A stretch of DNA of 43,659 nucleotides, from contig MGQA01000048.1 of the NCBI GenBank assembly GCA_001797665.1, positions 1 to 43,659 of the forward strand, written 5' to 3'. The position numbers and the translations under genes were made by a program. This document shows positions 336-3,952 of this stretch, piece after piece. Every line of letters begins with the position of its first letter. Position 1 is the first letter of the stretch. A model generated the notes under the pieces. It worked only from the letters and a program-made list of their open reading frames with translations, was not told the DNA's origin and did no database searches. The DNA is from Deltaproteobacteria bacterium GWF2_42_12 (GTDB lineage Bacteria > Desulfobacterota > GWC2-55-46 > UBA9637).

Positions 336-447
336 CAGCCTTACGGCAATTGTAAAATGAAAATTGCAAATTGCAAATTTTAAGAAAAGGTTTTCATTTT
401 GCAATTTAAAATTTTCACTTTGCATTTTTCAATGAGCGATAGCGTAT
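336..447 (+). repeat. Family B hairpin repeat, copy 1 (rpmG to tRNA-Trp spacer)
   Basis: The spacer begins with a degenerate GCC-TTACGGC hairpin. It then has words of the type AAATTGCAAATTGC on the left and their complements (TTTTGCAATTTAAAATTTTC) on the right, so the RNA can fold into a long imperfect hairpin. It ends in CAATGAGCGATAGCG, a variant of the GGAGCGAAGCGAC end seen in other B copies. No gene is visible here. Confidence 0.65.
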
Positions 448-1913: not shown

Positions 1914-2606
1914 ATGGGTAAAAACTATAACGCAGCTATTGCAAAAGTAGACACAAATAAATTTTACAATATTGACGATGCAGTGAAACTGCTTCCTGAA
2001 ACAGCTACGGCCAAATTTGATGAGACAGTGGATGTGGCTGTAAGATTAGGGATTGACCCAAAACAATCTGAGCAGATGGTTAGAGGGACTGTAGTACTAC
2101 CTAATGGGACTGGCAAGAAGGTCAGGGTTTTGGTTTTTGCAAAGGGGGAAAAGGAAAAAGAGGCAAAAGATGCAGGCGCAGATTTTGTAGGGGGAGAAGA
2201 TCTTGTTGAAAAGATAGCGAAGGGCTGGCTTGATTTTGACGCTATTGTTGCAACGCCAGACATGATGGGTTCTGTTGGTAAGCTGGGAAAAGTTTTGGGC
2301 CCCAGGGGGCTTATGCCAAATCCTAAACTTGGTACAGTAACATTCGATATTGCCAGGGCAGTAAAGGATATTAAGGCGGGTAAGGTAGAATTTAAGATTG
2401 ATAAGGCAGGCAATGTGCACGTTGCATTTGGCAAAATTTCCTTTGGTGTGAACAAGCTAAAAGAAAATTTTACTGTATTGTTAGAGAGTATTATAAAGGC
2501 AAAACCATCTACAAGCAAAGGGACATACTTAAGAAGTATTACAATATCAACAACAATGGGGCCCGGGATTAAGATAGATGCTGCCGGGGTAAGGGAGACT
2601 TTTTAA
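1914..2606 (+). CDS. rplA: 50S ribosomal protein L1
   Basis: L1 (230 residues) forms the mobile stalk that helps release E-site tRNA. In many bacteria it also represses its own L11-L1 mRNA. The family signature is visible in [21 protein letters not shown] around residues 121-141. The C-terminal [13 protein letters not shown] is also typical. The start lies one base after rplK. A family A element and the L10 leader follow. Confidence 0.98.
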
Positions 2607-2614
2607 ATAAATAT

Positions 2615-2668
2615 GGAGCAAGCCAACCGTGTTGGCGTAAGAATACGGCAACATGGGTGCTTTGATCC
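2615..2668 (+). repeat. Family A cloverleaf element, copy 2 (decayed)
   Basis: The outer arm GGAGCAA and the first hairpin GCCAAC/GTTGGC (2622-2636) are intact. The second hairpin is eroded (GGCAACATGGGTGC), and the closing arm reads TTTGATCC with one mismatch. Unlike the other copies it does not end at a ribosome-binding site. It abuts the 5' arm of the L10 leader at 2675. Confidence 0.65.
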
Positions 2669-2674
2669 AAATAT

Positions 2675-2897
2675 GGTCAAAGACAGTAGGGGCTGTTTGG
2701 CTTAATAATCCTACCGAGGCCAACGTCTTATGGCGATTGCAAAATGAAAATTGGCGCCAAAAGCGCCATTCTGAGTCCGCCTAAGGCGGATGAAGAATCC
2801 CTGAGACCCTTCGCTTCGCTCAGGGTGACATCTTCATGTCATTTTTCAATTTGCATTTTTCAATGAGCGGTAGCGATAGTCCTTTCTGTCTTTGTCC
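2675..2897 (+). promoter_or_regulatory. Ribosomal protein L10 leader (autoregulatory mRNA element), split by repeats
   Basis: The core 2680-2729 has the stem GTAGG/CCTAC (2686-2690 with 2710-2714). CTTAATAATCCTACCGAGG, the hallmark of bacterial L10 leaders, folds as a kink-turn in that family. AAGAC/GTCTT (2680-2684 with 2725-2729) can close it. A longer arm GGTCAAAGACAG (2675-2686) pairs 11 of 12 with CTGTCTTTGTCC (2886-2897), on the far side of a repeat tract at 2731-2880. In this family L10 or L10-L7/L12 binds the leader and represses rplJL. The identification rests on remembered family features, not on a search. Confidence 0.75.
2731..2880 (+). repeat. Composite B/J repeat inserted in the L10 leader
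   Basis: B-type ends (ATTGCAAAATGAAAATTG on the left, CAATTTGCATTTTTCAATGAGCG on the right) flank a J-type palindromic block at about 2762-2831. The block contains GGCGCC/GGCGCC-like arms, TCCGCCTAAGGCGGA and CCCTGAG/CTCAGGG. It looks like a dispersed repeat nested in a B element. It separates the L10-binding core from rplJ. Confidence 0.65.
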
Positions 2898-2945
2898 ATT
2901 ACGTTGAGTTTGATTAAAAAAATCCAAGAGACAGAAAGGGGGGAG
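2881..2945 (+). promoter_or_regulatory. Hairpin next to the rplJ ribosome-binding site
   Basis: CCTTTCTGTCT (2881-2891) is a perfect 11-base complement of AGACAGAAAGG (2929-2939). The 3' arm runs into the G-rich Shine-Dalgarno region of rplJ (GGAG at 2942-2945). The 5' arm overlaps the closing arm of the L10 leader (2886-2897), so the two pairings exclude each other. This suggests a translational switch, which is inference. Confidence 0.6.
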
Positions 2946-2952
2946 AAAAAAA

Positions 2953-3468
2953 TTGATTAAGGAAGAAAAGGTAAAGCTTGTAAACGAACTTCAGGACAAG
3001 TTTAAAAAGGCTAAGGCTGCATTTGTAACTGATTACAAGGGACTGAAGGTAGGGCAGGTGACTACCTTGAGAAAGTCTTTAAGGGATGCGTCTGTTGAGT
3101 TCAAGGTTGTCAAGAACACCCTTGCCAAGATAGCCATCAAGGAAGCTGGAGCAGAATCTTTGAAGGACTACTTCGATGGCACTACTGCTGTTGCCATGAG
3201 CTATGCTGACCCAGTCGCAGCAGCAAAGATTCTTACCCAGTTTGCGAAGGACGAACCTAACCTTAAAATCAGGGTTGGACTATTGGGGGGGAAACTCCTC
3301 AATCTTAACGAGATAAAGGCGCTTTCAGAGCTTCCATCCAGGGAAGTACTGTTGGGAAAACTTGTTGGCATGCTTAGGGCAGTTCCAACCAACCTGGTAG
3401 GAGTTTTGAGCGGCGTTCCAAGACAGTTGGTTTATACATTGGTTGCAATCCAGGCAAAAAAACAGTGA
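2953..3468 (+). CDS. rplJ: 50S ribosomal protein L10
   Basis: L10 (171 residues) anchors L7/L12 dimers to the ribosomal stalk. The N-terminal rRNA-binding domain contains VTDYKGLKVGQVTTLR and FKVVKNTLAKIA. The C-terminal helix, which binds L7/L12, is at about residues 135-171. The start is TTG 2953, eight bases after GGAG. No upstream ATG gives a family-like N terminus. It is followed by rplL after a family E repeat. Confidence 0.97.
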   Translation: MIKEEKVKLVNELQDKFKKAKAAFVTDYKGLKVGQVTTLRKSLRDASVEFKVVKNTLAKIAIKEAGAESLKDYFDGTTAVAMSYADPVAAAKILTQFAKDEPNLKIRVGLLGGKLLNLNEIKALSELPSREVLLGKLVGMLRAVPTNLVGVLSGVPRQLVYTLVAIQAKKQ

Positions 3469-3537: not shown

Positions 3538-3559
3538 ATTAAAAATGGAGGTTTTAAAA

Positions 3560-3952
3560 ATGGCAAATATTTCAAAACAGGATGTAATAAAGTTTATTGA
3601 GAGTTCAACAGTTATGGAAATTGCAGAGCTTGTGAAAGAATTAGAGAATAAATTTGGCGTTACAGCAGCAGCCCCTGTGGCTGTAGCAGCCCATGTAGCA
3701 GGCGCTGCAGTGGCAGCAGGAGCTGCTCCGGCAGAAGAAAAAACAGAATTTACTATTATCCTCAAGAATACAGGCGCGGATAAGATTAAGGTAATCAAAG
3801 AAGTAAGGACAATTACAGGCCTTGGCTTAAAAGAGGCTAAGGATCTTGTAGAGGGTGCGCCAAAGACACTGAAAGAGGGTGTTTCTAAGGCAGATGTAGA
3901 TAATTTCAAAAAACTGCTTGAAGCTGCGGGCGCACAGGTAGAGATTAAGTAA
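3560..3952 (+). CDS. rplL: 50S ribosomal protein L7/L12
   Basis: L7/L12 (130 residues from ATG 3560) recruits translational GTPases. An N-terminal dimerisation domain ([29 protein letters not shown]) is followed by an Ala/Pro-rich hinge at about residues 35-62. The C-terminal domain carries the factor-binding helix [24 protein letters not shown] chose 3560 because TGGAGG lies eight bases upstream and the N terminus matches the family. An in-frame ATG at 3545 overlaps that ribosome-binding site. Confidence 0.97.

Follow-up and report, generated by a model that had tools for sequence, protein, structure and literature searches.

How might the binding of ribosomal protein L10 to the leader of rplJ–rplL be relayed to the rplJ Shine–Dalgarno (SD) sequence? 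In Escherichia coli L10(L12)4 binds a kink-turn far 5′ of the rplJ start and from there represses translation, and an SD-hiding hairpin was proposed earlier (cited in PMC4538822), while the mechanism of repression is described as unresolved (PMC10931766). In Bacillus subtilis the rplJL leader is an attenuator composed of an anti-antiterminator, an antiterminator and a terminator (PMC4538822). The question is raised here by a contig of Deltaproteobacteria bacterium GWF2_42_12 (MGQA01000048.1), positions 1–43,659 of which are referred to as the window. Three short strands 5′ of its rplJ gene, termed S1, S2 and S3, can form two helices that share a segment. We consider it likely that this leader is an autoregulatory, three-strand translational switch, ON without free L10 and OFF with L10 bound.

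The locus and its leader

The window contains open reading frames in the usual order nusG-like, rplK, rplA, rplJ, rplL-like and rpoB, named from their translations and the conserved order. The gap between rplA and rplJ is 346 nt, and the leader lies directly 5′ of rplJ–rplL, the position of an L10 leader (RF00557). The first-pass annotation had taken the region for such a leader, and this is borne out. L10_leader is the top Rfam match to the leader region (E 1.7e-5), though its 41.7 bits are 2.3 below the gathering score of 44, and a scan of the whole window with Rfam does not report it, the score lying under that cut-off. Five relatives score above it (45.6–51.5 bits), four of them in the same family. 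The lower score of the window is probably due to a repeat insert that lengthens the loop (~2736–2864). The leader is accordingly classed as a homologous L10 leader on position and structure, not on the curated score. Both S1–S2 and S2–S3 are absent from the structure line of the match. The features are listed in Table 1.

Table 1. Features of the rplA–rplJ region of the window
Feature	Position	Strand	Description
rplA	1914–2606		
RF00557 L10_leader match	2659–2856	+	41.7 bits, E 1.7e-5; 3′ portion enters the repeat insert
L10(L12)4-binding hairpin (predicted)	2674–2722	+	C-stem UGGUC/GGCCA; kink-turn AAAGACA + CGA; NC-stem GUAGGG/UCCUAC; unpaired UAA
S1	2675–2686	+	GGTCAAAGACAG; bulged strand of the kink-turn; partner of S2 in the proposed ON state
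Self-folding repeat insert	2736–2864	+	18-nt inverted ends ATTGCAAAATGAAAATTG / CAATTTGCATTTTTCAAT; lies in the loop that joins the kink-turn to S2
S2, whole	2881–2897		CCTTTCTGTCTTTGTCC
S2, anti-SD part	2881–2891	+	CCTTTCTGTCT; 2886–2891 common to the anti-kink-turn part
S2, anti-kink-turn part	2886–2897	+	CTGTCTTTGTCC; 11/12 with S1
S3, SD-proximal strand	2929–2939	+	AGACAGAAAGG; AGACAG within S3 copies S1 sequence
rplJ SD	2937–2945	+	AGGGGGGAG; from sequence
rplJ (ribosomal protein L10)	2953–3468	+	TTG start at 2953
rplL-like open reading frame	3545–3952		

A copy of the insert elsewhere in the genome (G000:C101) is 85% alike over ~130 nt, and there are many shorter matches. The rplJ leader of another genome (G002, leader L026) carries a related element at the same site; its insert resembles the interior of a further related element in the window (344–444), which ends CAATGAGCGATAGCG just upstream of a tRNA at 448–521. 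In the leaders L022–L030, L087 and L108 of relatives, different palindromic repeats occupy the same loop or the apical loop of the kink-turn hairpin, which would fit a leader able to accommodate self-folding inserts at these loops. The insert was rejected as the switch itself; with it removed in silico the ON–OFF gap is −7.5 kcal/mol, little different from the −6.0 kcal/mol with it present.

The predicted L10-binding hairpin

Judged on sequence and pairing, the window has a kink-turn hairpin with an unpaired UAA, the kink-turn and UAA being the known determinants of L10(L12)4 binding (PMC4538822). The kink-turn nucleotides AAAGACA/CGA are our assignment by analogy. A protein search with L10 supplied the relatives whose leaders were compared, and 44 leaders of the window's class could be anchored; four (L034, L043, L084 and L085) could not be placed and were left out. 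The C-stem is paired 4/4 in 41 of the 44, UAA is present in all 44 and CGAG in 41. Forming the kink-turn fold costs a median of 4.0 kcal/mol over the free ensemble in these leaders, and 6.3 in the window. This cost would be met by G–A pairs and by the protein, both of which lie outside the energy model.

Three strands can form two mutually exclusive helices

S1 and S2 pair through 11 of 12 Watson–Crick base pairs, with U2677–U2895 as the sole mismatch. S2 and S3 pair 11/11, and the helix extends to 14/14 (2880–2893 with 2927–2940) when G–U pairs are allowed. Both helices need nucleotides 2886–2891, so that they can never be present together. The coordinates, letters and pairings of the first-pass annotation (11/12 for 2675–2686 with 2886–2897, perfect for 2881–2891 with 2929–2939) are all confirmed, as is its statement that the two pairings exclude each other. 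S3 is followed by the SD GGGGGGAG and then the TTG start, and S2–S3 covers the SD in part (2937–2940). On dinucleotide shuffling of the leader interior, 4 of 2000 shuffles gave 11/12 pairing with S1, while an 11-base perfect run with S3 occurred in 0 and both together in 0. Chance is not the source of the two pairings.

The strands were compared across the 44 leaders as motif-anchored segments; a fixed 32-nt SD window cuts S2 in short-loop leaders and under-counts the pairing. In nearly all leaders S1 has the sequence GGTCAAAGACAG or GGTCAGAGACAG, CTGTCT usually lies within S2, and S3 reads mostly GACAGAAAGGAGG, GACGGAAAGGAGG or GACAGAAAGGGGGG. S1–S2 is paired in 95.7% of 352 cells, compared with 36.6–41.5% in slid registers, and at least 9/11 positions are paired in 43/44 leaders. 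Seven cells at three pairs are changed on both sides, against 0–2 in slid controls. In L088, for instance, the GACAG and CUGUC of most leaders are replaced by GAGAAAG (S1) and CUUUCUC (S2). S2–S3 is paired in 81.0% of cells, above every slid register (46.6–68.2%), with at least 11/14 paired in 36/44 leaders. It is weak in two leaders of genus g8 (5–7/14), and L049 and L082 keep S1–S2, but not S2–S3. Covariation of S2–S3 shows no excess over slid controls among the 44 leaders (8 double-changed cells against 4–13) and was dropped as support for this helix. In between-genome permutations 0/5000 reached the observed pairing for S1–S2 and 7.5% of 5000 for S2–S3 (p 0.075), values that are not true probabilities as the genomes are related and non-independent. 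All three strands recur in relatives (S1–S2 96%, S2–S3 81%).

The pattern CTGTCTN{8,38}GACRGAAAGGRGG is present in 9/395 genomes of the phylum, a draw that included 17 genomes of the window's class; all nine belong to that class and, judged by position, all the matches fall within the rplJ leader. On its own, the S3 motif has 68 occurrences in 62 genomes of the class, about half of these being the rplJ site (compared by hand).

Folding energies and SD openness

The computed energy of the window is −105.2 kcal/mol in the ON state (S1–S2) and −99.2 in the OFF state. In the comparison of states that had been proposed at first pass, ON is therefore preferred by 6 kcal/mol, and S1–S2 is the dominant helix of the free RNA (about 73–87%; the unconstrained ensemble has about 73% S1–S2 and about 27% S2–S3). 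Over the 44 leaders ON is favoured by a median of 2.9 kcal/mol. Forcing the kink-turn gives −99.2 kcal/mol, and forcing both the kink-turn and S2–S3 gives the same value; the coupling between them is therefore automatic as computed. The mean unpaired fraction of the SD core in the 44 leaders is 0.88 with S1–S2 and 0.34 with the kink-turn formed. With S2 scrambled, the SD remains closed in silico in the kink-turn state (openness 0.25), so SD openness was dropped as sole evidence for a switch. Closing is partly a matter of composition, with pyrimidines abundant in the strand and purines in the nearby SD, and perhaps not of exact register. Since the model prefers ON by 6 kcal/mol, L10 would have to act during transcription or supply much binding energy; the Kd for the B. 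subtilis L10 leader is 33 nM (PMC4538822). On these computed values, the two states are close enough in energy for a protein-driven switch.

Proposed direction of the switch

With the sequences, exclusivity, conservation and computed energies of the helices as observed, the arrangement is very likely to be a real switch, because the two helices exclude each other and each is conserved throughout the class. We infer that L10 binds this RNA, the direction given below, and control that is translational rather than transcriptional. When there is little free L10(L12)4, S2 would pair with the kink-turn strand S1, leaving the L10 site unfolded and the rplJ SD open. L10(L12)4 in excess over rRNA would bind and stabilise the kink-turn hairpin, probably while the hairpin is leaving the polymerase. 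With the kink-turn held, S1 would be unavailable to S2, which would then pair with S3 beside and over the SD, and translation would be repressed.

The first-pass annotation had S1–S2 closing the L10-binding structure, and gave as its first direction that this closure frees the rplJ site. A reading of this kind, in which S1–S2 completes the L10-binding domain and L10 frees the SD (positive autoregulation), or is a mere basal stem of that domain, is very improbable. S1–S2 would indeed join the two ends of the leader and, as computed, dominates the free RNA. However, it consumes the kink-turn strand itself and so opens the L10-binding structure, and the binding fold sits wholly upstream of S2 and is complete without it. 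In B. subtilis, too, the L10-binding structure does not need the alternative strand further downstream; no RNA beyond about the end of the kink-turn hairpin, the 3′ boundary of binding, is required (PMC4538822). In E. coli and B. subtilis alike, L10 moreover autoregulates by repression (PMC4538822, PMC10931766). The L10 leader and the exclusive helices of the first proposal stand, while the closing role of S1–S2 and the first direction are not supported. S1–S2 uses up the kink-turn strand and therefore competes with L10, which favours the reverse direction that had been offered as the alternative, with L10 bound and the SD hidden. It is somewhat less improbable, yet still unlikely, that only S1–S2 matters, with the likeness of S3 to S1 due to chance or to an extended SD and any pyrimidine-rich sequence able to close the SD once S2 is free. 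The closure by scrambled S2, the lack of S2–S3 covariation and the g8 leaders that lack S2–S3 are what such a reading expects. Against it, S2–S3 pairing exceeds all slid registers, S3 is paired more by the natural S2 than by a scrambled one (0.71 versus 0.48), and the S3 motif falls at the single rplJ site in about half of its occurrences in the class genomes.

Attenuation of transcription on the B. subtilis pattern, with S2–S3 as all or part of a terminator, or as a Rho or pausing signal, would have the same three-strand logic as that proven attenuator (PMC4538822). We give it very little credence, as there is no intrinsic terminator-like site on the + strand of 2590–2990 ahead of rplJ, S3 is followed by GGGGAGAAAAAAATTG without a U run, and S3 lies immediately 5′ of the SD in leaders of the class. 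Under the preferred translational switch the resemblance to B. subtilis is nevertheless close. Both leaders have a kink-turn hairpin and a UAA motif for L10(L12)4, predicted in the window, and in both the L10 site makes the first of three structures that overlap. Each has a strand further downstream that competes for the hairpin, a part taken in the window by S2 in S1–S2, and that would form the OFF structure once released. That structure is a terminator in B. subtilis, whereas in the window it is proposed to form at the rplJ SD. A further difference is that S3 copies the kink-turn strand, so that one S2 segment serves both partners. We propose that the leader corresponds to the B. subtilis attenuator but acts on translation, and is economical in sequence.

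Other lineages

The switch proposed for the window would share with the E. coli rplJ leader translational repression by L10(L12)4 from a distant upstream kink-turn, and the kind of SD-hiding hairpin that was proposed for E. coli. The same search of the E. coli leader found no equivalent S1–S2–S3 arrangement at the SD. The open-access literature searched describes no SD-pairing three-strand switch for the lineage of the window. A duplex scan beyond the class gave S1-complementary strands with other letters in other lineages, which are single-sequence leads without a chance test: GGUUUUUUACAG adjoining CCUCC in Desulfobacterales-type leaders, CUGACUUUGGC in Geotalea and CUCCUUUGGCUAC in L096, from one other family. 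In the Desulfobacterales-type leaders L119–L138 a CACCTCCGGTTTTTTACAG-like sequence lies 5′ of the rplJ SD; pairing is possible between its CCTCC and GGAGG, and between GGTTTTTTACAG and CTGTCAAAGACC, the latter in the kink-turn strand.

Most bacterial L10 leaders may conceivably work through a strand that both opposes the kink-turn and feeds an expression platform, a generalisation that we hold only tentatively and think more apt to fail than to hold. Lineages would then swap the platform only, with SD-hiding in the window's class and in Desulfobacterales- and Geotalea-like leaders, and a terminator in Bacillota. If true, this would point to how translational repression works in E. coli, where the action of L10(L12)4 from far upstream is still open (PMC10931766) and to which the whole class studied here carries a compact candidate answer. 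The leaders of the class suggest how a single site for the protein comes to control translation in one lineage and transcription termination in another.
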